DNA from: a bacterium
GTDB taxonomy: Bacteria; UBP15; UBA6099
Direction of reading: 5' to 3'
Assembly (NCBI GenBank): GCA_029564595.1
Contig: JAKQPS010000113.1
Coordinates: forward strand, 158,227-222,226
Length of the DNA: 64,000 nucleotides
Shown here: positions 27,613 through 50,247 of the stretch, piece after piece
Position numbering within the stretch: the first letter of the stretch is position 1
How the letters are laid out: each line of letters starts with the position of its first letter
Made by a program: the position numbers and the translations under genes
The notes under the pieces: generated by a model
What the model was told of the DNA's origin: nothing
Databases searched by the model: none
What the model saw: the letters and a program-made list of their open reading frames with translations, nothing else

Positions 27613-27624
27613 CCGCGCTCTCTT

Positions 27625-28563: not shown

Positions 28564-28651
28564 TTCAATGTCACCTCCGGTTTAATGTAAACACAGTCAG
28601 GCCGCCGGAATCCGGGCTGGATCGCTCGCGGCCGCATCCTCGGAAAATCTA

Positions 28652-28870
28652 TCAGGCAGGGTTCTTCCGCTTTTCGCTTCCGAACCAATCTTCGGGTTTG
28701 CTGTACCAATATCTTTCCGACTGTTTCAGGGACTCGATGTATTCGGCGCGGGACTCAACCTTGTTTTTCCACGCCAGTTTGCCTTTCGGCAATCCGGGTT
28801 CGTAGCATTCGCCTATGACATCGACTTTGTCGCCTTTCCAGTCGTCTTTCTTTTCGAGTTTGCAGTCCAT
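28652..28870 (-). CDS. Small uncharacterised protein in the acs operon
   Basis: 72 residues, charged and rich in Lys, Glu, Trp and Tyr, with two cysteines (Cys3 and Cys22) and no signal peptide or membrane segment. A strong AAAGGAGG lies 5-6 bases before ATG at 28870, and the gene fits tightly between the second cooC (32 bases upstream) and acsD (88 bases downstream), which argues that it is real. I do not recognise a family. Position suggests a role with CODH/ACS maturation or assembly, for example as a small chaperone or metal carrier, but that is guilt by association only. Confidence 0.65.
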   Translation of the reverse strand: MDCKLEKKDDWKGDKVDVIGECYEPGLPKGKLAWKNKVESRAEYIESLKQSERYWYSKPEDWFGSEKRKNPA

Positions 28871-28902
28871 GACCGCCTCCTTTGTGGTTCTTCAAAAAAG
28901 AA

Positions 28903-29676: not shown

Positions 29677-29725
29677 CTCTCAGCCTTTCTAACGCGCGGA
29701 GCGCGCCTCGGATTCGGACGCGCAA

Positions 29726-30613: not shown

Positions 30614-30666
30614 AGTTTCACCCTCCATTAAAAGTTGTATTCATTTCAGTTCGAAAACGGCGCTCG

Positions 30667-32016
30667 TTAAGCCGCCGACCAGTTTTTCAGGAACGCCGAC
30701 AGGTGGGAAGCCTCTCTCGGCCCGATTTGAATCTCCCATCCTGCCAGTTCTTCTTCGAGTTCTCCGCTTATCTGCGCGGCGTATCCGGGTATGACTATCT
30801 TGCGATGCTTGATTTTATCCTCTATGCCGGACTTCTTGACGAAGGGAGCGATGGCGTCGGCCACGAACTTGCCGGCCGCCCACGCGGTGAGCACGGAAAG
30901 CCCTTCGCTGTCGATTATCAGCAACCACGACGGGACTCTGCTCGCCTCGATCTCTCCGGCCACGATGAAGTATGTGAGGGAGAAGTTCGTGGTGATGAGC
31001 ACCGGAGAATTTTCGTCCGGATTGCCGATCGGGTATATGCCCTGCTCCGTGGCCATCGGTCTCTGCGGGTCGGTGAAGATGTTCATGCGCTGCAGGAGCA
31101 ACGGGAACACCGTTTCGCCTTTGAGGTCGGAAAGGACGACGATTCCGGAGTATTTGGCTATCATGGTGGCGGCCGCGAGGGTCTCCATCATCGGGTCGTC
31201 GAACATTTCGCAAGGGAATGTGATGGTCGGGAATCCGAGCGGGCGGAACAGTTTTCGCAGAGCCGCGCGGCGGATGATAATCTGCTCCTCGAACGCCTTC
31301 TTGATGTCCGTCGCGCCGGTGTCCAGCACGATGTCCTTAAGACCGGCGGCGGAGAGTTTCTCGGTGAGCTGCGCCAGAGCGTCGAGGCTGTCAGCCTTGG
31401 CGACCACCGGGCATCCTTTCTCTTTGGCGATGGCCGCCACCGCGTCGGCGTTCTCCGCCGTCGCGGCGTGGAGCAGCGGCTTGTTGTCCCCGCACGCTTC
31501 GGCTCCCGCTTTCAGGGAGTCCGCGCTCGAGCTTACGAGTATCAAAGGACAAGCTTTGATGGAAAGGATTTTCGAGACTAGGGCCGAGAATTTTGCGGCG
31601 TCTCCGCCGGCGTCCTTCACGGCGACCATTTCGGGTTTGAGTTTCAAGCCGACTCTGTCGAAAACCAGCGTGTCGAGCATTTTGATCTTCGCTTCGACAT
31701 CGGCGTCGCTCATATCAGTCGACACCATAACGGCGATCGGAGTCGGGTTGACGAAAGTTTTTTCGTGCCTGAATTCGACGGTCTCGCCGCCGACGGTGAC
31801 AACGTAGTCGCCCGCGCCGATTTTCACCGGCCTGATGGGCGGAGCCGAGGCCGCGGAAAGCGTTTCCTTGGCGGCGTCCGACACGTGCGGACAATCGGCA
31901 AGTTCCCCTTTTCCAGCCGCCAGATTCATCGCAAAAGCAAGGCATGTGGGGAACCCGCAGTCCTTGCAGTTGGTTTTGGGCAACTGCTTGAAGATTTCAA
32001 TTCCTGTAAGAGCCAT
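30667..32016 (-). CDS. acsC: Corrinoid/iron-sulfur protein large subunit (CODH/ACS gamma)
   Basis: 449 residues. The N-terminus (residues 17-42, CKDCGFPTC...CPH) binds the [4Fe-4S] cluster that reductively reactivates the cobamide. The central TIM barrel and C-terminal cobamide-binding domain follow (NFSLTYFIVAGEIEASRVPSWLL region). It partners with AcsD and receives methyl from AcsE. GGAGGTG lies upstream of ATG at 32016. It sits between acsB and acsE, as in other acetogen clusters. No missing key residue was noticed. Confidence 0.96.
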   Translation of the reverse strand: MALTGIEIFKQLPKTNCKDCGFPTCLAFAMNLAAGKGELADCPHVSDAAKETLSAASAPPIRPVKIGAGDYVVTVGGETVEFRHEKTFVNPTPIAVMVSTDMSDADVEAKIKMLDTLVFDRVGLKLKPEMVAVKDAGGDAAKFSALVSKILSIKACPLILVSSSADSLKAGAEACGDNKPLLHAATAENADAVAAIAKEKGCPVVAKADSLDALAQLTEKLSAAGLKDIVLDTGATDIKKAFEEQIIIRRAALRKLFRPLGFPTITFPCEMFDDPMMETLAAATMIAKYSGIVVLSDLKGETVFPLLLQRMNIFTDPQRPMATEQGIYPIGNPDENSPVLITTNFSLTYFIVAGEIEASRVPSWLLIIDSEGLSVLTAWAAGKFVADAIAPFVKKSGIEDKIKHRKIVIPGYAAQISGELEEELAGWEIQIGPREASHLSAFLKNWSAA

Positions 32017-32097
32017 TCAATCGCACCTCCGATATCCTATGCGTTATTTATATCATAAAATCGACCAGACGGCTTCCTGAGCCGCCTGATTTCAATC

Positions 32098-34302: not shown

Positions 34303-34342
34303 TTGTCAATATCTCCTTTCATTCGGCTCGATATTCATCCGC

Positions 34343-36313
34343 TCAGGCCAACTCTCTGCGCTTCTCCATGTCGAAGAGCACGCGTTCTCTGGCTTTGTCG
34401 ATTCCGAGTTTTTTGCGCGCGGCGTCGATGCGCGCAATCATGAGTTGAGCGGCCTTTATCGGGTCCGGCTCGAACGCCCAGCATCCACCGAATTTCTCGT
34501 CCATCTTTTCGAACAGATATTTCGTGGTCTCCTGCGCTCCCAGCGTCGGGAAAGTCGTCCCGAAGACGGTGTAAACGCCTGAAGCGACAAAGTACTGGCC
34601 GATAGAAATCGCTTTTTCGGACATCCATTCCGGCGCGGCCCCGACTGCGGGCAGGTCGGACAGATCGTCTCCGAGTCCGCCTTCTTTGACCATAGCCGTG
34701 GCGGCAATGAGTATGCGCGAATTGTCCACGCAGGACCCCATGTGAATGACCGGAGGCAGGCCGACGGTTTCGCACACCTGTCTTAAACCTTCGCCGCAGT
34801 ATTTTGCCGCCGCCTCCGGGGAGCAGAGACCGGCTTTCGCCGCCGCTATTGCTCCGCATCCGGTGGTGAGAACGAGCACGTCGTTCTTGAGCAACTCTTT
34901 TATCATCTCCAAGTGCGCCCAGTCGTGTTTCACTTTCGGGTTGTTGCAACCTACGACTCCGGCCACTCCCCGTATCAGGCCGTTGATGATGTTGTCGTTA
35001 AGCGGCTTGTACGAAGCTCTGAAAGTTCCGCCCAGAAGATAGTTAATGGACTCGTGGCTGAAACCGCCCACGAAGTCTTGCGTAATCTGGGGGATATGCA
35101 CGTTTGCGGGCCGTTGCTTGAACATCTCTACGCCGGCCATGATGATCTTCTTCGCGGTCGCCAACGCGTTGTGCTCGTCGAACTGGATGTGCCTAGCTCC
35201 GTCCATCTTTGCTATCTTGGACGTGGTAATCACGGCGGTGTTGAAGCACTTTGCGATAGTCGGCAAAGATGGGAACACACACTGGACGTCCACTATCATC
35301 GCGTCCACCGCTCCGGTGGAAACGGCTAGTTCCTGAGTGATAAAATTGCCGATCGGCGGAATTCCGTGTCTCATCAGAATTTCGTTAGCGGTGCAGCATA
35401 TTCCACCGATATTGATGCCTTCCGCGCCGACAGCTTTCGCGGCGTTTATCATGTCTTCGGACTGAGAGGCCGCCACGATCATTTCCGACAGCAGCGGCTC
35501 GTGGCCGTGGACAATCACGTTCACCATGTTCGGGTCGATGCATCCGAGGTTGGTTTTGCTTATGATCGGTTCCGGAGTGCCGAACAGGATGTCCTGCAAA
35601 TCGGTGGCGAGCATGGAGCCGCCCCATCCGTCGGCGAGCGAGCAGCGCGCTCCCTGCATGAGAAGGCTTTCCACCTCGTGGTCGACTCCCATGTGAGTGC
35701 GGTGCATAATTTCCACCACTTCGCGGTCGATTCCGCGCGGAGCGACGCCGAGGTCGCGCCATATCTTCTGCCTCTTAAGAGGAGCTTTGCTGAGATACTT
35801 AAGTTCTCCATGCTGATTTCCGAATTCAGCCAGAGCCGCTCTAGCTATGTCGGCGGCTATCTCGTTGATCGGCCGTTCTCCGACTTCGATTCCGAGATCC
35901 ATCGCCACTTTAATCGTTTTCTGCTCGTCTTTAATGGTATAGTCCTTGCTTTTCCCTTCTGCCACTTCAAGAAGGGTTTCGCACACCGCGCGGCCGTGGT
36001 CGGAGTGAGCGGCCGCTCCGCCCGCGATCATCCTGATGAAATTGCGCGCGGCAATGGTGTCTACCGTCGCCCCGCAGACGCCTCTGTCTTTTCCGGGCTT
36101 GTCGGGGATTATCCTGCAAGGGCCCATGGCGCATATCCTGCAGCATACGCCGTCCGAGCCGAACTTGCAGCGCGGTTCCATTGAGTCGGATCTGTCGAAC
36201 ACCGTAACGTATTCTCCGCCGGTGTTCTCGCCAAGCATTTCGCAGGTCGCTTCGCAAGCGGACTGTTCTTGCGGCTGTTTCTTTTCTTTTTTCTTGGCTT
36301 TTTCTTCCGCCAT
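34343..36313 (-). CDS. acsA: Carbon monoxide dehydrogenase catalytic subunit (CODH/ACS beta)
   Basis: 656-residue Ni-Fe CODH reducing CO2 to CO (or the reverse) and channelling CO to AcsB. The N-terminal cysteine array CKFGSDGVCCRICAMGPC (about residues 49-66) supplies the B- and D-clusters. C-cluster motifs include GICCTANEILMRHGIP, VLTTGCGAIAAAKAGLC and HMGSCVDNSR. AAAGGAGG precedes ATG at 36313. It directly follows cooC across a small hairpin gap, a common pairing of CODH with its nickel chaperone. It groups with the acetogenic type by context, not with energy-conserving cooS operons. Confidence 0.97.
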   Translation of the reverse strand: MAEEKAKKKEKKQPQEQSACEATCEMLGENTGGEYVTVFDRSDSMEPRCKFGSDGVCCRICAMGPCRIIPDKPGKDRGVCGATVDTIAARNFIRMIAGGAAAHSDHGRAVCETLLEVAEGKSKDYTIKDEQKTIKVAMDLGIEVGERPINEIAADIARAALAEFGNQHGELKYLSKAPLKRQKIWRDLGVAPRGIDREVVEIMHRTHMGVDHEVESLLMQGARCSLADGWGGSMLATDLQDILFGTPEPIISKTNLGCIDPNMVNVIVHGHEPLLSEMIVAASQSEDMINAAKAVGAEGINIGGICCTANEILMRHGIPPIGNFITQELAVSTGAVDAMIVDVQCVFPSLPTIAKCFNTAVITTSKIAKMDGARHIQFDEHNALATAKKIIMAGVEMFKQRPANVHIPQITQDFVGGFSHESINYLLGGTFRASYKPLNDNIINGLIRGVAGVVGCNNPKVKHDWAHLEMIKELLKNDVLVLTTGCGAIAAAKAGLCSPEAAAKYCGEGLRQVCETVGLPPVIHMGSCVDNSRILIAATAMVKEGGLGDDLSDLPAVGAAPEWMSEKAISIGQYFVASGVYTVFGTTFPTLGAQETTKYLFEKMDEKFGGCWAFEPDPIKAAQLMIARIDAARKKLGIDKARERVLFDMEKRRELA

Positions 36314-36352
36314 TTAAATGCCTCCTTTAGCAATGCCTCTAAATGCGCTTTG

Positions 36353-36369
36353 GCGCGGGGTCCGCGCCT
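36353..36369 (-). other. Hairpin in the cooC-acsA gap
   Basis: Perfect 7-base arms GGCGCGG/CCGCGCC with a 3-base loop, 40 bases before the acsA start codon. No U-run follows; it may stabilise or set apart the acsA message. Confidence 0.4.
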
Positions 36370-36387
36370 TGTTTCCGCGTCGGGTTT

Positions 36388-37161
36388 TCAGTTCCCTGCT
36401 AATTCCTGTTCAAGCCTCGCGCGGATTTCTTTGATTACTTCGTTCACCCTCTCATCCTCGAACGGCGTCATGTTCTCTCTTCCGGAGTCGCGGATTTTCT
36501 CGCTCTCCGGGATGACGCCCAGCAGCGGATGATCTTTCAGTTCTTTCTTCAGATACTCGACGTCGGCGGGAGTTCTGGCTTCGTTGCCGACGAAGAGAAT
36601 CTTTTTATTTCCAAGGTCTTCCCAGAGCGGAATGATGCGGCGGGCGGTCGAAGAGCTTTTCGCGTCCGGGCGCACGACTACCACCAGCGCGTCCATCATG
36701 CGCGTGGTTCCTCTGCCCAGATGTTCCAGCCCCGCCTCCATGTCCATGATCAAATGCTGGTCGCTCTGAAAGACCATATGAGAGATGAGAGCCTTGATGA
36801 ACGCGCTCTCCGGGCATACGCAGCCGGAGCCGCCTTTCTCCACCGTTCCCATTACCAGCAGGGAGAGGCTTCCGCGCCGGAGGCAGTACTTGTCCGGTAT
36901 GTCGTCCACTTTGGGGTTCAGCTTGAATATGCCTCCCCAAGTTCCGGGCTGCGCTCCGGTGCGCTCGGCGATGAGGTCTTTGAGTTCTGAAACAGGCGTG
37001 GGATGCCTGTCCTCGGGGAAACCGAGAGTCGCGGCAAGATTCGCGTCCGGGTCCGCGTCCACTGCCAGAACCTTTATGCCCTCTTTTTCGAGGGAGTTGC
37101 AGAGCATGGCCGTGAACGTGGTCTTTCCGACGCCGCCTTTTCCTGTCACCGCAATCTTCAT
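36388..37161 (-). CDS. cooC: CooC-type nickel-insertion ATPase (first copy)
   Basis: 257-residue P-loop ATPase of the MinD class with deviant Walker A TGKGGVGKTTF at residues 6-16 and AVDADPDANLAATLGF switch. The CxC dimer/metal site is seen as GSGCVCPESAF near residue 115. The family inserts nickel into the CODH C-cluster at the expense of ATP. It is positioned directly before acsA, the expected partner. GAGAGGAA precedes ATG at 37161. A terminator-like hairpin lies between it and fhs upstream, so it may open a separately tuned transcript. Confidence 0.93.
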   Translation of the reverse strand: MKIAVTGKGGVGKTTFTAMLCNSLEKEGIKVLAVDADPDANLAATLGFPEDRHPTPVSELKDLIAERTGAQPGTWGGIFKLNPKVDDIPDKYCLRRGSLSLLVMGTVEKGGSGCVCPESAFIKALISHMVFQSDQHLIMDMEAGLEHLGRGTTRMMDALVVVVRPDAKSSSTARRIIPLWEDLGNKKILFVGNEARTPADVEYLKKELKDHPLLGVIPESEKIRDSGRENMTPFEDERVNEVIKEIRARLEQELAGN

Positions 37162-37191
37162 CTCAAATTCCTCTCTCGCGTTTCATAAGGC

Positions 37192-37239
37192 AAAAAAAGG
37201 AAAACACGCGCGGGGCGAAGAGCGCTCAGCGCGTTTTCC
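37192..37239 (-). terminator. Intrinsic terminator or attenuator between fhs and cooC
   Basis: On the minus strand a stem (6 bp TTTTCC/GGAAAA plus 5 bp GCGCG/CGCGC with a 2-base bulge) is followed by seven T residues. It would end or attenuate transcription entering cooC-acsA-acsB from the upstream hdr-met-fol-fhs genes. Confidence 0.65.
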
Positions 37240-37249
37240 CTCGATTCGA

Positions 37250-39022
37250 TTAAAACATCCCCTTGACTTTGCCTGTCTTCGTGTCGACGTCGATTCGGCG
37301 GTACGCCGGGTCCGACGCGGTTCCGGGCATCAAGGTAATGTCTCCCGCCAGCGGCACTAGGAACTGCGCGCCGCCATATATGAGAATGTCCCTTATGGGA
37401 AGAATAAAGCCTTTCGGTCGTCCCTTCAATGTCGGATTGTGGGACAGGCTCAAGTGCGTTTTCACCATGCAGGTGGCGAACTTGTCGAACTTCTTGTCCG
37501 CCTCGAACTTTTTGGCCTTTTCATTTGCCGTAGGGGAGAACTCGACTCCGTCTGCTCCGTAGACTTCTTTGGCGATAAGCTCGATGCGTTTTCTCAACGG
37601 CGTTTTGTCTTCATAAAGAAGTTTGAACTTGTTCTTTTCCTCGCAGGCGTCGATGACGGCGTCCGCAAGTTCCAGAGCGCCGGCTCCGCCGAACTGCCAG
37701 TGTCTGGAAACCGCGCATCTTGCGCCGGCGGCTTCCGCCGCCTTCTTCACCGCTTTGATTTCCTTCGGCGTGTCGGTGTAGAAGCTGTTGATGGCGACCA
37801 CGGGGTTGATTCCCGCCTTCTTGACGGTCTCAATGTGAGCGACCAGATTTCCCATTCCGGCGTTCAGCAGTTTGAGGTCTTCCTGAGTGTATGCCTTGTC
37901 TAGCGGCTGGCCGGGGGCGACCCTCGGCCCTCCGCCGTGCATCTTCAGCGCGCGTATCGTCGCCACCACCACCGAGCAGTTCGGAATCACTCCGCTGAGC
38001 CTGCACTTGATATTCCAGAATTTCTCGAACCCGATGTCGGCTCCGAATCCGGACTCCGTCACGTGGTAGTCGGCCAGTTTGGTGGCTATCATGTCCGCCA
38101 CAATCGAGCTTTGGCCCACAGCGATATTCGCGAACGGCCCGGCATGCACGAACACCGGCTGCCCTTCGATCGTCTGCATAATGTTCGGATTGAACGCCTT
38201 GACCATCCAAGCGGTCATGGCTCCGGCCACATCGAGGTCCTCTGTGGTGACGGGCTTGCCGTCCCTGCTGTACGCGACCACTATCTGGCCGATTCGTTTG
38301 CGCAGGTCCGCAAGGCTGGTGGCGACGGACAGTATTGCCATAACTTCGGAGCTGACCGATATGGCGAATCCGCTCTCCATCAGGAACCCGTCCATCTTTC
38401 CGCCGATGCCTATGACGATGTTGCGGAGCGCCTGCGCGCAAAAGTCGATGATCCACTTCATCTCGACCCTTTTCGGATCGATATCGAGGCGCTTAAGCCC
38501 TTTGCCTTTCAGGATGGCGTCGGTATAGTTGCGCTCGTGCTGCATGCGCGAGGTGAGAGCCACCATCGCAAGATTGTGAGCGTTTGTGACGGAGTCAATG
38601 TCGCCGGTGAGGCCCAGAGAGAACTCCGTGAGGGGGATGCACTGTGCGAGGCCGCCGCCCGCCGCGCTGCCCTTGATGTTGAAAGTCGGCCCGCCCGACG
38701 GCTGTCTGATGGCTCCGCACACTCGCTTGCCGCGAAGCGCCAGTCCGGGAACCAGCCCCATGCTCGTCGTCGTCTTTCCTTCTCCCAGCGGCGTCGGCGT
38801 TATCGCCGTCACCTCTATGTATTTCGCGTTGGGCCTTTTCTTGAGCCTGTTGTAAGCCTTCGTAAAATCCACCTTGCCGACATAGTGGCCCATAGGGATA
38901 AGCTCTTCGTCGAGCAGTCCCAGCTCGTCGGCAAGTTGCTTGACCGGCTTCATGTCGCTCTCGCAGGCTTCCGCGATCTGCCAGTCAGCCATCTTTGTCG
39001 GATCGATCTTTTTGATATCCAT
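37250..39022 (-). CDS. fhs: Formate--tetrahydrofolate ligase
   Basis: ATP-dependent activation of formate to 10-formyl-THF, first step of the methyl branch after formate dehydrogenase. The 590-residue product has typical length (about 557-590) and carries the P-loop [14 protein letters not shown] near residue 76, [34 protein letters not shown] and ESGFGADIG blocks. The next upstream gene is folE, 29 bases away. A terminator-like hairpin follows its stop. Only one fhs copy is seen. Confidence 0.97.
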
Positions 39023-39051
39023 TTCACCCTCCGTCGTTTATTTTAATATTT

Positions 39052-39627
39052 TTAATGTTTCTTGTCCCGCAGCAGCGCGAGCGTTTCCATTCTAGTCTTC
39101 TGATGAGTCCTGAACGCGCCTTTGACGGACGACGTTACAGTCATCGTCCCCGCCTCCCTGACGCCTCTCATCGCCATGCACAAATGCTCCGCTTCAATTA
39201 CAACCATCACCCCCTTAGGTTGAAGTATCTCGTTTATGGCCGTCGCTATCTGGTTGGTCAGCCTTTCTTGAAGCTGAAGCCTTCGCGAGTACATATGCGT
39301 TACTCTAACCAGTTTGCTGAGACCTGTTATCCTTCCGTCAGACGGTATGTATGCGATGTGCGCTTTCCCGAAAAAAGGCAGCAAATGGTGTTCGCACATC
39401 GAGTAAATCGGGATATCCCTGACCATAATTATCTCATCGAAAGCCCCATCAGGCAATACCTTTAGAACCTCTTTGGGATCGCAGTTCATGCCGGCGAATA
39501 TTTCCTCATACATCGCTGCGACGCGGGCCGGGGTTTCCACAAGTTCCCCTCTGTTCGGGTCTTCTCCGATGGCCTCAAGTATGTCTCTTACCGCTTTTTC
39601 GATTTTCTTTTTATTTTTATTGTCCAT
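39052..39627 (-). CDS. folE: GTP cyclohydrolase I
   Basis: 191-residue zinc enzyme converting GTP to dihydroneopterin triphosphate, first step of tetrahydrofolate synthesis. Zinc ligands are seen in [15 protein letters not shown] (about residues 76-90) and [12 protein letters not shown] (about 141-152). [13 protein letters not shown] and GLSKLVRV are other family motifs. It sits between pabB and fhs, so pterin supply is coded with the pathway that consumes folate. The length lacks the long N-terminal regulatory arm of animal enzymes. Confidence 0.96.
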
Positions 39628-39644
39628 TTCCGCCTGTCCCGTGT

Positions 39645-41108
39645 TTATTTCGCGCGCTCGCGTTTTGTTGCCGAAGAATCGCGATTGCCATCCCCAGCGG
39701 CAAGAGCCTCCACAAGCGCCCTCCCCTTGTCCAGAGTCTCCTGATACTCCGCCGCCGGGTCTGAATCCGCCACGATTCCGCCCCCAACATTAAACCACAC
39801 TTCCCCGCCTTTCGCCACTAGCGTTCTTATAACGATGTTCGTGTCCATGTCCCCGTTGAAACCGATCCAGCCTATCGATCCCGTGTAAAAACCGCGCCTA
39901 GTCGGCTCAAGCTCGTCGATTATCTCGATTGAGCGTATCTTCGGGCATCCAGTTATCGAGCCGCCGGGGAAAGACGCCCTCAACAGTTCCACTGGCCCGC
40001 AGCCTTCCCTCAAAACCCCTTTTACAGTGGCCACAAGATGATGCACCGTGGCGTATGATTCGAGCGTTTTTTCCTCTGTAACCGCCACGGAGCCGAACTC
40101 GCACACCCTGCCGAGGTCGTTCCTCTCGAGGTCCACTATCATGGCAAGTTCCGCGTTGTCCTTTTCGCTGAGGATCAACTCGCGGGCGAGCGCGGCGTCG
40201 CCTGCTGCGTCCGCGCCTCGCGGACGCGTCCCCTTAATCGGGCGCGTCTCAACTTCCCGTCCGCTCTTCTTCAGAAATCTCTCCGGCGACGAGCTGATTA
40301 TCTTGAAATCCCCGTAATCGAGATACGCGCCGAACGGAGCCGGGTTGATATCTCTCAATTTTTTGAAATAGGCATGCGGCGAAGAGGACAATCCGGCGCG
40401 GAACTGTTGGGAAAGGTTCACCTGATAAATGTCCCCCGCGCGGATGTGCTCCAGCGCCTTTTCCACCGCCCGCAAGTATTGTTCTCTAGTGAAATTGGAA
40501 ACCGGCGCGCGGGTTTTTGCTATAGAAGGCGCGGGAGCCTCGACGACAGGCTCTTTCATCCATCTTCTTGCCCTGTCGGCGCATTTCTCCGCCGCGCTTG
40601 CGTCGCCGCCTTCCGCAGAGTATTCCACCGACGAAAGATGCGTCCTTCCGGAGAGCCGATCGTGTATGAGGATTGTCCTGTAAACGGCAAAAACCAAATC
40701 GGGAAGAGGCAGATTGACCGCCGCGCGGCGCGGCAGGCGCTCGATGAACTGTCCGAGGTCAAACCCGAACGCCCCTATTCCTCCCGCGTAAAACGGAGCC
40801 TCGTTCCAGTCGCTTCTTACTTCGCAGCCTTCGATAATTTTCTTCAGCGTGTCGAACGGGTCCCCGCTCGCGCACTCCACCCTGTCCGGCAGTTCGATTG
40901 TTTGGTGAGAGCCTGAACAGCGGAAGACTAGATAAGGATCGCAGCCGATATATGAGAACCTGCCGAACGGATAGTCCGATCCTCCGCTTAAAAGAGCGGA
41001 ATAAGCAGAGCGGAAGCCGATGCGTCCGTAACATTCCTCGAAAGACGCTGGCAGTTCTATTTCCCTGATGAGCGGCTCACGCGCCCCGGACTGAAACATT
41101 CCTCTCAT
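39645..41108 (-). CDS. pabB: Aminodeoxychorismate synthase component I
   Basis: 487-residue chorismate-binding enzyme that aminates chorismate to 4-amino-4-deoxychorismate on the route to p-aminobenzoate and folate. The motif PIKGTRPRG is diagnostic: PabB uses the lysine where anthranilate synthase (TrpE) has alanine. [30 protein letters not shown] and [12 protein letters not shown] complete the active site. The start ATG at 41108 overlaps pabA by 32 bases; a second ATG three codons in is possible. Not fused to the lyase PabC, which is not present in the window. Confidence 0.93.
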
Positions 41109-41676
41109 GCCTTTCCGCCATCAGCATGAAGTTTCTTATCATGCTTTTGCCTTTTTCCGTCAGAAAAGATTCGGGATGGAACTGTACTCCCCAAATCGGG
41201 AACTGCTCATGGCTTATTCCCATCGCGACGCCGTCTTCCGTCCACGCCGTTATCCGCAGACAACCCGGCAGCGCGTCGACAATCAAAGAATGATACCGGG
41301 CGCAGACGACCGGGTTGGGAATCCCTTCGAAGATTCCTGAGCCGTCGTGATGAACAAGCGACGTTTTTCCGTGCATGACCTTTTCAGCGCGCGTCACGCG
41401 GCCGCCGAAAACATCGGCCACGCACTGCATGCCCAGACACACTCCGAGAATTGGGATGTCGCGGCCCAGTTCCCTGATGACCGCGCGCGAGACGCCCGCG
41501 TCGTCCGGCGTCCCCGGCCCCGGCGATATCACAATCGCGTCAGGCCTCATCCCGGTTATTTCCGCGGTCGAGACGGCGTCGTTTCTAAACACGCTCATTT
41601 CCGCTCCCTGTTCGCCGAAATACTGGAACAGATTGAACGTGAACGAGTCGTAATTGTCGATAAAAACAATATTCAT
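41077..41676 (-). CDS. pabA: Glutamine amidotransferase subunit for aminodeoxychorismate synthase
   Basis: 199-residue class I glutaminase that delivers ammonia to PabB. The catalytic triad is visible: nucleophile Cys in LGVCLGMQ (about residue 80), His in WGVQFHPES and the following Glu. IDNYDSFTFNL at the N-terminus and a YHSLIVD block are typical of TrpG/PabA. In many bacteria the same subunit also serves TrpE; the tight overlap with pabB argues for folate use here. No good ribosome site precedes ATG at 41676; instead a strong GC hairpin (41689-41716) ends 13 bases upstream. Confidence 0.92.
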   Translation of the reverse strand: MNIVFIDNYDSFTFNLFQYFGEQGAEMSVFRNDAVSTAEITGMRPDAIVISPGPGTPDDAGVSRAVIRELGRDIPILGVCLGMQCVADVFGGRVTRAEKVMHGKTSLVHHDGSGIFEGIPNPVVCARYHSLIVDALPGCLRITAWTEDGVAMGISHEQFPIWGVQFHPESFLTEKGKSMIRNFMLMAERHERNVSVRGA

Positions 41677-41776: not shown

Positions 41777-42703
41777 TCAGTCGAACTTCGGTCTCGGCAG
41801 CAGCCCCGCCCGCTCCACCAACTCCGGCACTCTGTGCTCCCATTCTATCGCCATCAGGTGGATGCCTTTTACGCCCTCCACCTTCCGCAGTTCATCGATC
41901 TGTTCGACCATTATCTTGATGCCTTCTTCAGCCTGCTGCTCTTTCGGGACGCCCTTCATCCTCTTGATGATATCCTCAGGGATGCTGATGCCGGAGACCT
42001 TGTTGTTCATGTAGTTGGCCATCCCGGCGGATTTCAGAGGAGTGACGCCCGCCATGATGAAGCATTTCTCGTGGAGGCCGCGCGCCCGCGCCCCCTCCAT
42101 CCATTTCTTGAAACGCTCCATGTCGTAGATGCACTGGGTTTGAATGAAATCCACTCCGGCGGCGATCTTTTTCGCCAGCCGCGGCACTCTCGACGCGAAC
42201 GGGTCGCCGAACGGATTCTCCGCCGCCCCGATGAACATCTTAAACTCGCCGTCTATCTCGTCGCCGCTCAGCAATTTGCCTTCGTCTCGCATGGTTTTCA
42301 CCATGTTTATCATCTGCACGCTGTCGATGTCGTAAACATTCTTCGCCTGCGGGTGATTGCCGAACACCTGATGGTCTCCGGAAAGACACAGCATGTTGCG
42401 GACGCCGAGCGCGACGGCTCCGAAAAGGTCGCTCTGCATAGCCAGCCGGTTTCTGTCCCTGCACACCATCTGCATCACCGGCTCGAGGCCGATGTCCAGC
42501 AGGATTTTTGCCGACGCGATGCTCGACAACCTGACTATGGCCGTCTGGTTGTCCGTGAGGTTGACGGCGTCCACCATCCCCTTCAGGTGTTTCGCCTTCT
42601 CCTCGATGACTTTTATGTTCGTGCCCTTCGGCGGGCCGAGTTCGCCTGTGACCGCCAACTGTCCCGACGCAAATACTTTTTCAAGATTCGAGTTTGACTT
42701 CAA
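41777..42703 (-). CDS. metF: Methylenetetrahydrofolate reductase catalytic subunit
   Basis: 308-residue flavin TIM barrel reducing methylene-THF to methyl-THF, last step of the methyl branch. It shows TGELGPPKGTN (substrate-side Glu), VNLTDNQTAIVRLSS, DRNRLAMQSDLFGA, LCLSGDHQ and FIQTQCIYD. It overlaps metV by 23 bases; the TTG at 42703 is taken as start because GGGAGG lies 6 bases upstream inside metV. MetF paired with MetV is the acetogen-type enzyme that lacks NAD(P)H binding in MetF itself and takes electrons through MetV and partner proteins. Confidence 0.94.
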   Translation of the reverse strand: MKSNSNLEKVFASGQLAVTGELGPPKGTNIKVIEEKAKHLKGMVDAVNLTDNQTAIVRLSSIASAKILLDIGLEPVMQMVCRDRNRLAMQSDLFGAVALGVRNMLCLSGDHQVFGNHPQAKNVYDIDSVQMINMVKTMRDEGKLLSGDEIDGEFKMFIGAAENPFGDPFASRVPRLAKKIAAGVDFIQTQCIYDMERFKKWMEGARARGLHEKCFIMAGVTPLKSAGMANYMNNKVSGISIPEDIIKRMKGVPKEQQAEEGIKIMVEQIDELRKVEGVKGIHLMAIEWEHRVPELVERAGLLPRPKFD

Positions 42704-43367
42704 GGAGATCCTCCCTCACTATGTTGCGGACTCCGCCCGACATGCTGTTTGACCAGTCTTTGGGCGGGTTGATTTTTTCAATCTGATCTAGTCTTCCCAT
42801 CTTTTCGAGTTTCTCGAAGATCAGATGCCACGCGCACTGAATCGTCTTCGGGTCTACTTCGCACATGCCGTTCTCGGATCCGCCGCAAGGCCCGTTCAGC
42901 AGGCTCTTCGAGCAGCGGGCGATCGGACATATACCCCCCGTCAAATCCAGAATGCAGTCCCCGCACCCTCCGCAGTACTCCGCAAAAACGCCGGGTTCCT
43001 TCGGCCTTCCGAAGGAGGTCGTGTTCAGCCCCGGAAGAACGATTATGTCCGGGAACAACTCGGCTATCGTCTGCACTCCGACGCCGCAGGCGATGGACAA
43101 AACGACGTCCGCTTCCTTCATCTTGTCCTTTACCGATTCGAAGAATTCGTTTTCGCACTGCCGCTCGATGGTGTCTTCGATCACCTCAAGCTCCTTGCCG
43201 TCCTTTTTCGCCGCTATGCGAAGCTGGGATGACAGTATCCCGACTTCCTTGGAACCGCCCGCGAAACAAATCGTCACGCAGGCTCCGCAACCGAGGACCA
43301 TGACCTTCTTGGCGTCCCCGAGCATTTCGCGGATTTCTTCCAACGGCTTCTGTTCTGCAATAATCAT
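42681..43367 (-). CDS. metV: MetV, iron-sulfur/zinc partner subunit of methylene-THF reductase
   Basis: 228-residue cysteine-rich protein of the MTHFR C-terminal (MetV) family. The cysteine sets include GCGACVTICFAGG near residue 26, a middle CGVGVQ, CGGCGDCILDLTGGICPIARC near 135-155 and NGPCGGSENGMCEVD. These are proposed to bind Fe-S clusters and/or zinc that wire MetF to an electron donor. Immediately upstream are mvhD and hdrABC, the same order described for the Moorella MetVF-HdrABC-MvhD complex. The electron donor here is inferred, not shown. Confidence 0.92.
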   Translation of the reverse strand: MIIAEQKPLEEIREMLGDAKKVMVLGCGACVTICFAGGSKEVGILSSQLRIAAKKDGKELEVIEDTIERQCENEFFESVKDKMKEADVVLSIACGVGVQTIAELFPDIIVLPGLNTTSFGRPKEPGVFAEYCGGCGDCILDLTGGICPIARCSKSLLNGPCGGSENGMCEVDPKTIQCAWHLIFEKLEKMGRLDQIEKINPPKDWSNSMSGGVRNIVREDLLEVKLES

Positions 43368-43425: not shown

Positions 43426-43911
43426 TTATATTCTCTTTATATTTATCGGAGACGGCCCGAGTCTTTTGACCCTTTCGGTCATCAGCGCGGCCACCTCCGC
43501 GAAACGCGGCCCTGCGGAAGCTGCTATATTAAACATCTCGACGCGTTCCGGCTCAAGCCCTACCTGCTGGATGAGTTTTTTCGCGTAATATATTCTCTGT
43601 TTCGCGTACAGATTGCCTATGTCGAAATGACATCCCCCCTCTTCGCATCCGGCCACGTACACGCCGTCCGCTCCCTCTTCAAACGCCTTGAGGATGTAAA
43701 GAACGTCAACCTTCCCAGTGCATGGCGTCCGGATAATCCTGATGTTGGGCGGATATTGAAGCCTCATCGAGCCGGCCAAGTCAGCCGCCGCGTACGAACA
43801 ATAATGGCAGGCTATTGTCACTATCAACGGTTCGAAACCCGGAACCGGCTCTTTCTCCATTAAAGGATCGGGGTCCGGAACCGTGCTCATCAAATCGGCT
43901 CTTTCAGCCAT
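43426..43911 (-). CDS. mvhD: MvhD-like hydrogenase/heterodisulfide reductase iron-sulfur subunit
   Basis: 161 residues. The F420-non-reducing hydrogenase delta-subunit domain is recognised by ACHYCSYAAADLAG, RTPCTGKVDVLYIL, EGADGVYVAGCEEGGCHF and YYAKKLIQQVGLEPERVEMFN. MvhD normally carries a [2Fe-2S] cluster and passes electrons between an input module and HdrA. No MvhG/MvhA hydrogenase subunits are nearby, so the input partner must be something else, perhaps the pyridine-nucleotide domain built into HdrA. It sits between hdrA and metV. Confidence 0.9.
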   Translation of the reverse strand: MAERADLMSTVPDPDPLMEKEPVPGFEPLIVTIACHYCSYAAADLAGSMRLQYPPNIRIIRTPCTGKVDVLYILKAFEEGADGVYVAGCEEGGCHFDIGNLYAKQRIYYAKKLIQQVGLEPERVEMFNIAASAGPRFAEVAALMTERVKRLGPSPINIKRI

Positions 43912-43977: not shown

Positions 43978-46900
43978 TTATTTCGTCACTAGCTCTCTTT
44001 GAAGAGCCTTAGAGATAATCGCCGTTTCCTGCAAAATAATCTGGTCGTCTCTAAACTGCTCCACTTGAATGGCTTTCGCGGGACAAGCCGCCGCGCAACA
44101 CCCGCAACCCTGACACTCGACTCCGCTAATCTGCGCGCGGTTTCTTTCATTGATAAACGGCACATTGTATGGGCATACCCTCACGCAGGTAAGGCACGCC
44201 GCGCAAAGCTCTTCATTCACTTGGGCGACCATGCCTTCTCTTTCCAGATAGTCCTTGCAGAGAATTATCATCGCCCGGCTGGCCGCCGCTCTCGCCTGCT
44301 GTATGTTTTCCTCCAGCGGTTTCGGAGAATGCGCCACGCCGCAAAGGTAAAGCCCCTCGCTTGCGAAATCCACAGGCCTCAGTTTCGCGTGCGCCTCGCA
44401 GAAGAATCCATCCGCGTCCGCGGGTATCTTGAACAGATCGGACAGTCTTCCGTTTGTGTCGGACGGAACCACAGGCACGCTCAACACAAGCGCGTCAGGC
44501 TCGAAGACAAGTTCCTTCTTTAAAACGTCATCGTTTACGCTGACTCTTAACGCCGCGCCTTCCTTGCTAATAACGGGGTCGTCGCCGTCTTTGAACCTTA
44601 TAAACACGACTCCCCTGTCTCTGGCCGCCTGATAGTTCAGCTCTTTGAACCCGTATGTCCTAATGTCCCTGTACAGCACGTACACATTGGCTTCGGGGTT
44701 GTCGTCCTTAATCTTTACTGAGTTCTTCACCGCTTGGCTGCAACATATCTTGCTGCAATATTTCCTGTTTTCATTCCGCTGGTCGACGCATTGAACTATT
44801 ACGATATTCTTCGCTTCCGTGATTTTTTTGTCTCCGGTGTACAGCGCGCGGCCCAGTTCCGACTGAGTCATCACGCGCTTGTCGTCCCAGAACGGCAAGT
44901 CGGGCTTGAACTCGTTTCCGCCCGACGCCACTATGCAAATGCCGTGTTCCACGACAATCGTCTGCGCCTCTTCGGATTTCGTCTTTTTTGTCGACAACGT
45001 CGTCGAGTAGTGCCCAACATGCCCTGCGACTTCCTTGATCGAACAGTTTTTGAAGACCTTGATTCTCGGGTGGGCCTCGACCTTGGTGGTCAGGTCTATC
45101 AACAGATTCTGAACATCAGAGCCTTCCACAGTGTAATGAATGTTGTTTATGAGGTTTCCGCCGAGGGCGCTCTCTTTCTCGATAAGGAAAACTTCGAACC
45201 CCTGATCGGCAATAGCCAGCGCGGCGGTCATCCCGGCAGGCCCTCCGCCGATTACAAGCCCTTTTTGAATGACTTCGTTTCTAAAAACCTCGAGGGCTTT
45301 GTGTTCTTTGACTCTCGCCACCGCTCCTGCTGTCAGTTCCTTCGCCTTTTCAGTGGCGATCTTGGGATTCTCCTTGTGAACCCATGAATCGTGTTCGCGA
45401 ATGTTGGCGAATTCGAAGAGATACTTGTTCAACCCCGCCAGCCTCATAGTCTGCTGGAAAAGCGGAAGGTGCGTCTGCACCGTGCATGAGGAAATGACAA
45501 ACCGGTTGAGTTTATGCTCGTTGACGACTTCGATAATGTGGTCAAGATTGTCCTGAGAGCATGTGTAAAGACTCTCCTCTGCGTGAACCACTCCCGGCAG
45601 CGTTTTGCAGTATTCGACGACAGCCGGAACGTCCACCACCGAGCCTATGTTGAATCCGCAGCGACATATCATAACGCCCACGCGAGGCTCTTCTCCAGCG
45701 ACATCCCTTTCAGGGGGATACTGCACAGGAGTAATGCGGGTGCCGCGTTCCGCCGCCAAGTCTATCATCGCCGCGCACGCCGCTCCGCTCGCCTGCGTCA
45801 CCGAGTCGGGGATGTCCTTCGGACACTGAAACGCTCCGGCGACATATATTCCTTCTTTTCCACTGCTGGTCGGGCATAACGGATCCGTTTCGCAGAATCC
45901 GTATTCGTTCAGTTTGACTCCGAATATGTCGGCGATTTTCCTGTTCGTGCTCGTCGGCTCAAGGCCTACCGCCAGCACAACCATTTCAAACTCCTGAGTG
46001 GCCTGCTTTCCGTCTTCCCCCATATATGTGAGCAATAAGTTCTTGGTTTTCTGAATTTCTTTTATTCCGGAGATGGCGCTGCGCACGTACTTCACGCCGT
46101 ACACGTTTTTCGCGGTTTCATAGTAGCGATCGAAGTTTTTGCCTTGCGCCCTCACGTCTATGCAGAACACTGTGCAATCCATATCCGGCTCGTGTTCTTT
46201 GCCTATGACGGCCTCTTTAGCCGTATACATGCAGCACACGCCGGAGCAATATTCATTCCCCACAGTAGCATCTCGAGAGCCGACGCATTGTATGAAAGCC
46301 ACATTTTTCGGAGCTTTATTGTCGGACTTCCTGCGAATGTGCCCGACCGTCGGCCCGGAGGCGCTCAAAAACCTCTCGAACTCGATGCTGGTGTACACAT
46401 TGTCATAAACCCCATAGCCGTATTGGGTGAGTCTGCCTTTCGGGTTGAACGTTTCAAACCCCGGAGCGAGTATCACCGCGCCCACTTCCAGATTCATGTC
46501 AACATCGGTCTGATTGAAATCTATCGCATTCTGCTGGCATATCATCTCGCACATTCGGCAGTCCGAACACGGGCCGCATGAAAGGCATCTTTTCGCTTCC
46601 GCCACCGCTTGTTCCGGCGAATATGTCTTTTCCACCTCGATAAAACTTTTTTTTCTGACTTCCGGATCAACTTCCGCCTGTTTATTGCGGGGTATTCTGG
46701 CGGCTGAAGAAATCGTCTTTTGATCCGCGTCCGTCGCCGGAGGCATTTCGTCTTCATATCTCGGCGCGGTCATGTCTTCGCCGTTGAGATATCTCATGAT
46801 TGAAACAGCCGCGTTCTGTCCGTCCGCGATCGCGCCGATAGCCATCCACGGGCCGCGCGCGCAATCCCCGCCAGCGAAAACTCCGGGCCTGTCCGTCTCC

Positions 46901-48555
46901 GCCGTCTTTTCGTTGACTACCACAGTTCCCCGCCCGCTGACTTTGACTCCTGACCCGTTCCCACTGAAATTGACGTCGGGCCTCTGGCCTATCGAGATTA
47001 TGAACGTGTCGACTTCCACGCTGGTTGCGACGCTGTCGTCGAACATCGGATTGAAGCATGCTTTTTCGTCGAACACCTGAGAGCAGCGCTTGAATTCGAC
47101 TTTCGACACCCTGCCGTCCGTCGCGTGGATAGCCTTGACGCCCCATGAGTTCAAAACCGACACGCCTTCAGACTCGGCCTCGTGTATCTCCCATTGCCAC
47201 GCGGGCATCTCTTCCCTGCATTCGAGGCAGGCCAGCGTCACCTGCGAAGCGCCGAGCCTCATCGCCGTGCGCGCGCAGTCGATAGCCACGTTCCCGCCGC
47301 CCAGCACCAGAACCTTTTTTCCTATTCCGGTTTCTTCGTTAAGTTTTGCTTTTCGTAGAAATTCGATTCCTGACAGAACCCCCGCCGCGTCCTCGCCGCT
47401 GACGCCGAGTTTCATGTCTTTGTGCGCGCCGACGGCGATATACACGGCTTTGAACCCTTGGTTGAAAAGCTTGTCTACGCCGTCCGCGCCGTCGATATTC
47501 GAGTTGAGTTTAATCTCGACTCCGGCCCGCTCGATTCTTTCTATCTCATATTTCAGGATGGCCATCGGAAGCCTGTATTCGGGTATGCCGACAGCGAGCA
47601 TTCCGCCTGCCACAGGCAGTCTTTCGAACACCGTAACCGGGAATCCGCCCTGCGCCAGCCTGTATGCAGCAGTAAGCCCGGCCGGGCCGGCCCCTATCAC
47701 CGCTACTTTTTCTTCTCTCTCGGCGACATCTTTTTCCTTCGTCTTCCACGGTTCTCTCGAAGGGTCGGTCGGGCGGTCGATTCCGGACGCCTTTCCGACT
47801 ATCCCGGCTTCCTCAAGCTCAAGGTCGCTTATAAATCTTTTTAAATTATTTATGGCGACAGGCTCGTCCACTTTGTTCCGCGTGCACTGTTCTTCGCACG
47901 GATGGAAACAAACCCTGCCGCATACCGACGGGAACGGGTTGCGGGCGCGGACAACTTCCAGCGCGTCCTTGAAGCGACCTTCGGCAATAAGCTGCACATA
48001 CCCTTGGCAGCTTATGTGGGCAGGGCAGGCGCTCTTGCACGGAGACGTCCTCTCCCTCTCAATGGCGAACCAGTTGGGAACCGCCTGCGGATAGAGCCGG
48101 AACGCGGCTCCGAACTCGTTCAGATATTCGTTCGTGGGATTCGGGATATGCACCGGACACACGCCCGCGCATTCAGCGCAACCTGTGCATTTTGATTCAT
48201 CAATATATCTCGCCCGCTTGTTCACCGAGACGTCGAACCTGCCGGGTTCTCCTTCAATTTTTTGCACATCCGACATAGTTACGATGTTGATGTTCGGATG
48301 GTTGCCGACCGTGACCAGCTTGGGAGACACTATGCACATGGAGCAGTCGTTGGTGGGAAATACTTTGTCAAGCCGCACCATGTTGCCGCCGATGCAGGGC
48401 TGATTTGTGACCATGTGAACCTGAAAACCGCAGTCGGCCAGATCGAGCGAAGATTGCATGGCCGCTATGCCGCCGCCGACAACCATTACCGCCCCGATCT
48501 TTTCGCTTCCCGTTTTCGATTCGCTCTCTTGTTGATTGACGTTCTCTTCCGTCAT
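43978..48555 (-). CDS. hdrA: HdrA-type electron-bifurcating flavoprotein, giant HdrA-GltD-HdrA fusion
   Basis: 1525 residues, well over the 650 of a methanogen HdrA. Order: an HdrA-like FAD region (VVGGGIAAMQS near residue 23) with CTGCAECAGVCP near 122; an inserted GltD/NfnB-like NAD(P)H domain with its Cys-rich N-part (CKSACPAHISC, CFHPCEEQC, about 172-220), GAGPAGLTAAY (about 282) and GGGNVAIDCARTA (about 415); CGPCSDCRMCEMIC near 655; continuing HdrA with CSGVCCMYTAKEA (about 762); a second HdrA with GGGPAGMTAAL (about 1098) and CSKICCSQA (about 1268); and two terminal ferredoxin motifs (about 1452 and 1483). ATG at 48555 with AAGGA is favoured over GTG at 48600, which overlaps hdrB but lacks a ribosome site. 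It is likely to bifurcate or confurcate electrons among NAD(P)H, ferredoxin and MetVF. Confidence 0.9.
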   Translation of the reverse strand: MTEENVNQQESESKTGSEKIGAVMVVGGGIAAMQSSLDLADCGFQVHMVTNQPCIGGNMVRLDKVFPTNDCSMCIVSPKLVTVGNHPNINIVTMSDVQKIEGEPGRFDVSVNKRARYIDESKCTGCAECAGVCPVHIPNPTNEYLNEFGAAFRLYPQAVPNWFAIERERTSPCKSACPAHISCQGYVQLIAEGRFKDALEVVRARNPFPSVCGRVCFHPCEEQCTRNKVDEPVAINNLKRFISDLELEEAGIVGKASGIDRPTDPSREPWKTKEKDVAEREEKVAVIGAGPAGLTAAYRLAQGGFPVTVFERLPVAGGMLAVGIPEYRLPMAILKYEIERIERAGVEIKLNSNIDGADGVDKLFNQGFKAVYIAVGAHKDMKLGVSGEDAAGVLSGIEFLRKAKLNEETGIGKKVLVLGGGNVAIDCARTAMRLGASQVTLACLECREEMPAWQWEIHEAESEGVSVLNSWGVKAIHATDGRVSKVEFKRCSQVFDEKACFNPMFDDSVATSVEVDTFIISIGQRPDVNFSGNGSGVKVSGRGTVVVNEKTAETDRPGVFAGGDCARGPWMAIGAIADGQNAAVSIMRYLNGEDMTAPRYEDEMPPATDADQKTISSAARIPRNKQAEVDPEVRKKSFIEVEKTYSPEQAVAEAKRCLSCGPCSDCRMCEMICQQNAIDFNQTDVDMNLEVGAVILAPGFETFNPKGRLTQYGYGVYDNVYTSIEFERFLSASGPTVGHIRRKSDNKAPKNVAFIQCVGSRDATVGNEYCSGVCCMYTAKEAVIGKEHEPDMDCTVFCIDVRAQGKNFDRYYETAKNVYGVKYVRSAISGIKEIQKTKNLLLTYMGEDGKQATQEFEMVVLAVGLEPTSTNRKIADIFGVKLNEYGFCETDPLCPTSSGKEGIYVAGAFQCPKDIPDSVTQASGAACAAMIDLAAERGTRITPVQYPPERDVAGEEPRVGVMICRCGFNIGSVVDVPAVVEYCKTLPGVVHAEESLYTCSQDNLDHIIEVVNEHKLNRFVISSCTVQTHLPLFQQTMRLAGLNKYLFEFANIREHDSWVHKENPKIATEKAKELTAGAVARVKEHKALEVFRNEVIQKGLVIGGGPAGMTAALAIADQGFEVFLIEKESALGGNLINNIHYTVEGSDVQNLLIDLTTKVEAHPRIKVFKNCSIKEVAGHVGHYSTTLSTKKTKSEEAQTIVVEHGICIVASGGNEFKPDLPFWDDKRVMTQSELGRALYTGDKKITEAKNIVIVQCVDQRNENRKYCSKICCSQAVKNSVKIKDDNPEANVYVLYRDIRTYGFKELNYQAARDRGVVFIRFKDGDDPVISKEGAALRVSVNDDVLKKELVFEPDALVLSVPVVPSDTNGRLSDLFKIPADADGFFCEAHAKLRPVDFASEGLYLCGVAHSPKPLEENIQQARAAASRAMIILCKDYLEREGMVAQVNEELCAACLTCVRVCPYNVPFINERNRAQISGVECQGCGCCAAACPAKAIQVEQFRDDQIILQETAIISKALQRELVTK

Positions 48556-48596: not shown

Positions 48597-49472
48597 TCAC
48601 AGCAGATTCAGTTTTTTCAACAAAGGCAGCGGGTCCACCAGATGCTTTTTCAGCCAGCTTTGAGCCTGCGGCAGTCCAAACGCCAGTCCCATCAGTTCAG
48701 TGATGAAAAACACCGGCATCCTGTTTCCCGGCTCCGTTTCCTGTCTCATGTCAATATTAGCGTGGCACATCGGGCAGGCGGTGACGATAGCTTCGGCCCC
48801 CGCCTCTTCGGCGGCTTCTCTCAACTTGCCGACAAGCGTTTTGACCACGTCCGACCTTGCCATCGCGTGCCCCGCGCCGCAGCAGTCCGTCTTGTACGAC
48901 CAGAATTTCGGCTCCGCCCCAAGCGCAGCCAGAAGATTGTCCATCCCCGTCGGGTTGTCCGGGTCGGACCCCGTCAGTTTCTTAGGCGGCCTAGTCAGCA
49001 GACAACCGTAATAGCAGACGGCCTTAAGCCCTGCCAACGGCTTCACCACGCGGGCGCGCGTTTCGCCAAACCCGATTTGTTCAAGAGCGTCTAGGATATT
49101 CACCGTCTTTATCGAGCCGCCGAAGGGCTTCTCGACAATTTCTTCCATCCGCTTTTTAACATCGGGGTCCTGCGCGACCGAAGTTTCCGCCACTTTCAAT
49201 CTGTTGTAGCAGGCGGCGCAGGGAGCCAGCACGTCAAGCCCGGCAGGCTCCGCTAGTATCAGAGTCCTTAGCGGCAGAGCCAACGCAAGCTCGTGGCTCA
49301 GGTTGTGAGCGGAGCTGGCCCCGCAGCACACCCAGTCGGGTATCTCCGTCAACTCGACCCCGATATGCTTCAGCGCGGCGCGGGTCGAGTGGTCATATTC
49401 TCCGCCCGACGATTTCAGCGAACATCCGGGGTAGTACGCGAACCGCTTTGCCGCAGTCTTCGTCTCGGTCAT
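48597..49472 (-). CDS. hdrB: Heterodisulfide reductase subunit B-like protein
   Basis: 291 residues with two CCG-domain cysteine motifs: YPGCSLK..CCGASSAHN..CAACYNRL in the first half and CYYGCLL..CCGAGHA..CPMCHAN in the second. In methanogens these bind two non-cubane [4Fe-4S] clusters that cleave CoM-S-S-CoB. Bacteria lack that substrate, so in this setting HdrB probably hands electrons to MetV or another acceptor. It overlaps hdrC by ATGA at its start. Length and both motifs are intact. Confidence 0.93.
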   Translation of the reverse strand: MTETKTAAKRFAYYPGCSLKSSGGEYDHSTRAALKHIGVELTEIPDWVCCGASSAHNLSHELALALPLRTLILAEPAGLDVLAPCAACYNRLKVAETSVAQDPDVKKRMEEIVEKPFGGSIKTVNILDALEQIGFGETRARVVKPLAGLKAVCYYGCLLTRPPKKLTGSDPDNPTGMDNLLAALGAEPKFWSYKTDCCGAGHAMARSDVVKTLVGKLREAAEEAGAEAIVTACPMCHANIDMRQETEPGNRMPVFFITELMGLAFGLPQAQSWLKKHLVDPLPLLKKLNLL

Positions 49473-50038
49473 ATTTTCGGTCCGGCCTTGTCTATGATTT
49501 TTCTAACTTCTTTATGCCCCTTTACTTTGGGCGAATACTTAATCTTCATTTTTTTCATCATTTCCTTGCCGATTTCCATGTCGTCCATGAAAGACTTCGT
49601 CTGGAGCTTATAATGGCCGAACAGCATCGGCTCGTTCATCCTGCCGCGCGCTCTCACAATGCCCATAAAAATGTCGTGGAACCGCTTGGTGTTCGGCTCC
49701 GGGCACTCGATCCCGCGCTCGACCGCCATCTCTTTCAGGATGTCCATTACGCCCGCGACGTCTATCTCCATCGGGCAACGCGTCGTGCATGTGACGCACG
49801 AAGAGCACATCCAGATGGTTCTGCTCTTCAAAACCTCGTCTTCCATGCCGAGCGCGCACATGCGGATTATCTGCGTCGGGTTGTAATCCATCGCGAATTC
49901 CACCGGACAACCCACGCCGCAGCGCATGCATTGAATGCAACGCGAAAGATTTTTCGCGCCTCGCGCTTTTAATACATTTACGAAATTGGGATTAATCTTG
50001 AAATTTACAAGACCTACGCTTGCAGCAGCGTCGCTGAT
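49469..50038 (-). CDS. hdrC: Heterodisulfide reductase subunit C-like ferredoxin, with no canonical start codon
   Basis: Iron-sulfur subunit with two [4Fe-4S] motifs: CIQCMRCGVGCP and CSSCVTCTTRCP. The first in-frame ATG (49927) falls inside the first cluster motif, so starting there would delete an essential cysteine set. The frame stays open upstream to a stop at 50042-50044 and encodes a normal HdrC leader (VNFKINPNFVNVLKARGAKN), but contains no ATG, GTG or TTG. An ATC at 50038 has AGGGGG 8 bases upstream, giving a 189-residue protein; an ATG at 50045 is one base out of frame. Either a non-canonical AUC start, a substitution or a frameshift explains this. It is the promoter-proximal gene of the block. 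Confidence 0.85.
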   Translation of the reverse strand: MSDAAASVGLVNFKINPNFVNVLKARGAKNLSRCIQCMRCGVGCPVEFAMDYNPTQIIRMCALGMEDEVLKSRTIWMCSSCVTCTTRCPMEIDVAGVMDILKEMAVERGIECPEPNTKRFHDIFMGIVRARGRMNEPMLFGHYKLQTKSFMDDMEIGKEMMKKMKIKYSPKVKGHKEVRKIIDKAGPKI

Positions 50039-50247
50039 AGGTCATTCCCCCTATCTATAATTAAAGTAGCGTTTCTCTCACCTTGCCGCGCGCGACCGCC
50101 GCCCGCCGGAGCATTTGCGTGGGATTCGGTTGGTCTGCGGACTTTCAAACAGCCTGCCGTAAATCCTCGAGCTGCCGGTTTTTGTGTGTCTATATTATTC
50201 AGACTTCGGCCACAGCCGCGCGTCGTTTCCTTCGCGCGACCGTTGAT
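50039..50247 (-). promoter_or_regulatory. Long structured leader upstream of hdrC
   Basis: About 200 bases between the predicted transcription start (near 50241) and hdrC. It contains a GC-rich stem (GTCGCGCG pairing with CGCGCGGC), a small GTCT/AGAC hairpin and other inverted stretches. It did not match the cobalamin, THF, TPP, SAM or c-di-GMP-I motifs I know. It may be a regulatory RNA. Confidence 0.4.

Follow-up and report, generated by a model that had tools for sequence, protein, structure and literature searches.

An HdrA-GltD-HdrA protein encoded in a Wood-Ljungdahl gene cluster of UBP15, a likely subunit of a type IV methylene-THF reductase with a predicted NADH-type pocket

The Hdr-type methylene-THF reductase of Moorella thermoacetica, MetFV-HdrABC-MvhD (Mock 2014, as cited in PMC9430772 and PMC8760232), belongs to type IV and contains an HdrA in which an N-terminal unit interrupted by a GltD domain is followed by a C-terminal HdrA unit, with three predicted FAD sites and one predicted NAD(P)H site (PMC9430772). 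Within this HdrCBA-MvhD-MetVF reductase, HdrA is the subunit that oxidizes NADH, as its recombinant Moorella form shows; a physical complex with NADH:viologen and viologen:methylene-THF activities has been reported for Moorella, and NADH-dependent methylene-THF reduction has never been observed (PMC8760232). Type IV reductases need a third reactant; for Moorella, a role of ferredoxin as the second acceptor was not confirmed (PMC8760232), and a model of confurcation with menaquinol has been proposed in the literature for Moorella and Sporomusa. Insertions of GltD/NfnB into HdrA are also known from archaea (PMC12054007, PMC9012536), and fused HdrA proteins with a complementary distribution of Cys197 and the N-terminal domain have been read as internal heterodimers (PMC9012536).

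The window analyzed here, a 64,000-nucleotide stretch of a UBP15 metagenome-assembled genome (97% complete), encodes an HdrA of 1525 residues on the minus strand (43978-48555, counted from the ATG at 48555), whose HdrA-GltD-HdrA layout was mapped with Pfam/NCBIfam and phmmer. A chance origin of the gene is excluded because its product gives matches with E-values of 1e-60 to 1e-268 and is conserved in more than 20 homologues; an intact copy of 99% identity in another assembly (L009/L017) and intact homologues from other lineages likewise rule out chance or misassembly.

Genomic neighborhood analysis places hdrA in a minus-strand series spanning 26.6-50.0 kb. The series begins with hdrC (49469-50041), hdrB (48597-49472, family matches and two complete CCG motifs), hdrA, mvhD (FlpD, 43426-43911, family match), metV (42681-43367, PF12225), metF (41777-42703, family matches), pabA, a pabB/trpE-like gene and folE, and continues with fhs, a cooC-like gene, acsA, acsB, acsC, acsE, a second cooC-like gene, acsD and folD; the genes from folE to folD, the rest of the Wood-Ljungdahl/folate cluster, occupy 26622-39627. 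Gene letters beyond named-family matches were assigned from family matches and gene order. The folate genes folE, pabA and pabB/trpE-like (39052-41676, minus strand) lie within the Wood-Ljungdahl series, with fhs on one side and metF on the other. In three same-genus assemblies, the hdrC frame contains no ATG, GTG or TTG upstream of the initial Fe-S motif, and its start is probably an ATC at 50041, eight bases past a GGGGG. Elsewhere in the window, a single 4501-residue ORF with a signal-like N-terminus (11204-24709, minus strand) probably encodes a giant secreted or surface protein.

The domain layout is that of two HdrA units, the first of which is split. HdrA-type matches flank a GltD-type match at approximately residues 168 to 593 (PRK12771, TIGR01316) accompanied by Fer4_20 (Pfam, NCBIfam). 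By phmmer, residues 23 to 173 and 659 to 934 align to the HdrA chain of 5odc, a solved methanogen complex, residues 171 to 593 to the StnC/NfnL/GltD chains of NfnABC, StnC, Nfn and glutamate synthase, and residue 940 to the chain end to a second HdrA copy. The N unit lacks an N-terminal HdrA Fe-S domain and opens directly with the first half of its TrxR/FAD domain (residues 20 to 165, 48061-48498, aligned to 5odc_A 146-296), which carries C74, the equivalent of Cys197, invariant among homologues. Alignment and motif conservation place the first [4Fe-4S] motif of the inserted ferredoxin domain at C123/126/129/133 (48157-48189). The GltD/NfnB-like domain follows (residues 171 to 600, 46756-48045), recognized by family matches, motifs and the Fe-S cysteines C173/177/216/220/224. 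In the alignment it ends at the second half of the split ferredoxin domain (C657/660/663/666/669/673, 46537-46587), so the insert lies between two cluster motifs of HdrA's own ferredoxin domain (CTGCAECAGVCP, insert, CLSCGPCSDCRMCEMIC). The second half of the TrxR/FAD domain (residues 690 to 935, 45751-46488) contains C757/770/774/775 as well as E727 and K780, the equivalents of E356 and K409.

The second HdrA spans residues 950 to 1515 approximately. It has the N-terminal Fe-S domain missing from the first unit (residues 955 to 1090, 45286-45693, phmmer; C964/966), a second TrxR/FAD domain without ferredoxin insert or Cys197 equivalent (residues 1098 to 1436, 44248-45264) and a C-terminal two-cluster ferredoxin domain located by family match and alignment (residues 1445 to 1495, 44071-44223; C1451-1461 and C1481-1491). 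The two units are thus complementary: the Cys197 equivalent occurs only in the first and the N-terminal Fe-S domain only in the second, and they probably pair within the one chain. An AlphaFold model of residues 1 to 945 built from 21 sequences (pLDDT 85.6, pTM 0.82) contains both the HdrA and the GltD/NfnB folds. In Foldseek searches, this model aligns with HdrA cores over ∼920 columns with TM up to 0.94 (normalization to chain 8rwn_A, 428 residues); against NfnL/GltD the TM is 0.78-0.81, and StnC structures were also matched. The three flavin-type Rossmann regions of the preliminary description are all present (VVGGG at ∼25, VIGAGPAG at ∼285, VIGGGPAG at ∼1101), as are its several ferredoxin-like cysteine motifs, from C123-C133 through C1481-1491. 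Its picture of a GltD module with two HdrA units holds, with one point of wording: GltD sits within the ferredoxin insert that belongs to the first unit rather than between complete units.

What the sequence shows directly is which genes are present, how the domains are ordered and that the cofactor motifs are retained. Among the features of type IV reductases, metV, metF, hdrC, hdrB, hdrA and mvhD occur in one cluster, a MetF core and a MetV subunit (PF02219, PF12225) are both encoded, and at least one TrxR unit of HdrA bears the E356/K409 pair (E727/K780). The Moorella subtype is marked by a GltD domain that interrupts the N-terminal TrxR/ferredoxin unit, as seen here. Taken jointly with the mechanism proposed below, it is likely that this HdrA is a subunit of a type IV (Hdr-type, Moorella-type) HdrCBA-MvhD-MetVF methylene-THF reductase. 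The Moorella system shares with it the same six gene types, an HdrA length of ∼1500 residues, the GltD-interrupted N unit and a C-terminal unit without ferredoxin insert. A view of the enlarged HdrA as unusual is not supported, since this layout had already been described (PMC9430772); PMC12054007 and PMC9012536 record GltD/NfnB insertions in archaeal HdrA too. What the present locus adds is a further phylum with two lineage-specific residue changes.

Other families share only parts of this architecture. Sporomusa ovata HdrA, from a type IV enzyme with the same gene set, also has two TrxR units with the E/K pair in one of them, but is 942 residues long and lacks the GltD domain. Type III HdrA and HdrA9-11 of ANME-1 and Bathyarchaeota likewise carry NfnB/GltD within the HdrA ferredoxin domain; they differ in being archaeal, shorter (at most 1182 residues for all HdrA proteins in that paper's set) and located outside metF clusters in the ANME-1 genomes examined there (PMC12054007, PMC9012536). 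The fused double HdrA of type II (HdrA3/HdrA4) has the complementary Cys197/N-terminal domain pattern found here, but has no GltD and a reported unit order that is reversed (PMC9012536). For the insert itself, the best-scoring solved structures are the GltD modules of StnC/NfnABC (8oh5, 9bov, 9n5u). These have the same NAD(P)H-FAD-[4Fe-4S] composition, and that of StnC feeds another bifurcating unit; unlike the window's insert, they are fused to NuoG/molybdopterin-enzyme-like parts and carry the NADPH-type YRR motif.

Loss of FAD- or NAD(P)H-binding residues from the middle domain would have spoken against its proposed role, but the motifs and Fe-S cysteines are kept and mostly invariant across 21 homologues. 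The FAD site is GAGPAG (residues 288 to 293) and the NAD(P) site GGGNVA (residues 419 to 424), with GGD at residues 562 to 564; by its sequence, the GltD module is not degenerate. For type III HdrA, PMC12054007 gives as a criterion that a Rossmann motif of GltD reads GXGXXG and not GXGXXA; here the FAD site matches GXGXXG and the NAD(P) site does not. The arginine of the GltD motif GIPEYR is common to bifurcating NfnB and non-bifurcating StnC, and sequence therefore does not decide which flavin bifurcates. At the 2′-phosphate position the window protein has CLE (residues 443 to 445, 47221-47229), where NADPH enzymes have YRR: the latter occurs in the NADPH-dependent Nfn and Stn enzymes of the PDB and in E. 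coli GltD, whereas NAD-dependent E. coli PreT has AREE. CLE fits NADH-type chemistry, and from these three residues the pocket is predicted to prefer NADH.

CLE is found in the window protein and its same-genus copies, while YRR occurs in a sister genus (G003, 63% identity) and in another member of the order (G002). A swap of the GltD domain was considered as the source of CLE; with the motif columns removed, however, the insert still groups with YRR-bearing UBP15 relatives (support 100/100), which argues against it. None of the bootstrap trees contains a single CLE group, and an AU test of a single CLE origin gave p 0.107, which does not formally reject it. The change from YRR to CLE was probably an independent switch toward NADH in this lineage. 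Among the gene clusters of homologues, YRR occurs in 9/9 of those linked to metVF versus 3/7 of those without it (Fisher p 0.019, uncorrected for kinship), and CLE mostly in those without metVF (4/7; loci L049-L068 and L087-L094; equally uncorrected for kinship). This association of YRR with metVF is only a lead.

The two HdrA flavin units differ in their bifurcation residues. E727/K780 of the N unit is kept in every homologue examined, and the C unit keeps K1277 and has Gly1235 (44851-44853) aligned at the E356 position. Gly1235 recurs in all three same-genus assemblies that cover the position (G004, G005, G006), and every other homologue whose sequence extends over it has glutamate there; the Moorella equivalent, likened here through its published description, is E1204. 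The E/K pair in both TrxR units, a trait of Moorella that is not defining for type IV, is thus absent. Judged by the published E/K criterion, a single HdrA flavin, the first, would bifurcate here, as in Sporomusa, and the second probably acts as a relay.

In the mechanism proposed here, the FAD in the GltD insert would take electrons from NADH and hand them, via the clusters of GltD and of the split ferredoxin domain, to the FAD in the first HdrA unit with its E727/K780 bifurcation signature. One branch would run through HdrBC and MvhD to MetVF, reducing methylene-THF; the other would reduce a low-potential acceptor, here most likely ferredoxin, to be re-used by Rnf and CODH. This scheme as a whole, covering NADH input, bifurcation and both branches, together with the type IV identity, is one we hold with good confidence. 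Direct input of NAD(P)H into HdrA, in place of a hydrogenase or NADH module, had been suggested beforehand and still appears plausible: the middle-domain motifs are kept, no RnfC2-, Flx- or hydrogenase-like subunit gene is found among the annotated genes at 26.6-50 kb beside hdrA, and the homologous Moorella HdrA on its own is the NADH-oxidizing subunit (PMC8760232, PMC9430772).

The same complex could instead confurcate, with NADH and menaquinol jointly reducing methylene-THF, the model published for Moorella and Sporomusa, its closest characterized relatives. MqnA/MqnD, however, had no match in any of the 7 UBP15 genomes (one of them 97% complete), although the control was positive in 4/14 reference genomes, any MenD matches in the 7 genomes stayed below the cut-off, and this genome encodes a full Rnf; we regard confurcation with menaquinol as quite improbable. 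Because UBP15 has no detectable menaquinone-synthesis markers and this genome has Rnf, ferredoxin is favored over quinone as the better guess for the third partner in this lineage, although UBP15 may use an imported quinone or another quinone pathway. The genome has complete rnfCDGEAB, CODH/ACS and FeFe hydrogenase genes, acetyl-CoA synthase occurs in 7/7 UBP15 genomes, and no NiFe hydrogenase match was found in the genus. A second hdrABC-like set (HdrA of 830 residues; L098, G000:C41:128000-147999) adjoins 2-oxoacid-oxidoreductase-like genes and lies ∼10 kb from rnfCDGEAB.

An easy ferredoxin route is disfavored by the position of GltD exactly in the ferredoxin-exit domain of HdrA, where it may block ferredoxin access (PMC12054007). 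This placement, and the NADPH-like YRR of close relatives, would suit a GltD that serves as electron exit rather than donor site, connecting HdrA with the NAD(P) pool and, when running oxidatively, confurcating to NAD(P)H, a role suggested for HdrA-NfnB fusions of ANME-1. Against it stand the NADH-type CLE of this genus, the oxidation of NADH by Moorella HdrA (PMC8760232) and the surrounding Wood-Ljungdahl cluster, which suggests, without proving, a reductive direction; such an exit is unlikely. A plain NADH:methylene-THF reductase, with the extra flavins serving as relays only, would fit the lost E356 equivalent of the C unit and the fact that reduction of methylene-THF by NADH is already exergonic by itself (from the potentials in PMC5861303), but leaves the retention of E727/K780 without exception in the N unit to be accounted for, and we consider it very doubtful.

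Single-chain HdrA-GltD-HdrA homologues were found in 12 genomes of other families among 290 sampled, several of them adjoining metVF. In the HdrA-core tree, GltD-less forms are interspersed among GltD-bearing ones, so the insert was gained or lost repeatedly; for instance, the UBP15 relative G001 has a 1026-residue HdrA without GltD in an hdrCBA cluster with metF nearby, and its tree neighbor G002, joined with 100% support, has GltD. In G204 the protein is split into two adjacent genes of 906 and 561 residues (loci L060/L068 cover G204 and G001). Proteins of ∼700 residues in Syntrophobacteraceae/Desulfobacteraceae (loci L014-L016) are GltD-type without HdrA units and were set aside as a different architecture.

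We put forward tentatively, as a possible rather than a probable combination, that the UBP15 enzyme became an NADH-specific, ferredoxin-reducing reductase with a single bifurcating flavin, through the independent YRR-to-CLE change, the lost C-unit glutamate and life without quinone. If so, ferredoxin would here fill the place of the second acceptor that has long been missing for type IV reductases. Whether the third reactant is ferredoxin or a quinone bears on energy conservation in acetogens, and a lineage combining the enzyme with Rnf, and without detectable menaquinone-synthesis markers, is a natural test case. The CLE/YRR contrast between sister genera offers a simple way of probing by mutation whether coupling is to NADH or to NADPH.
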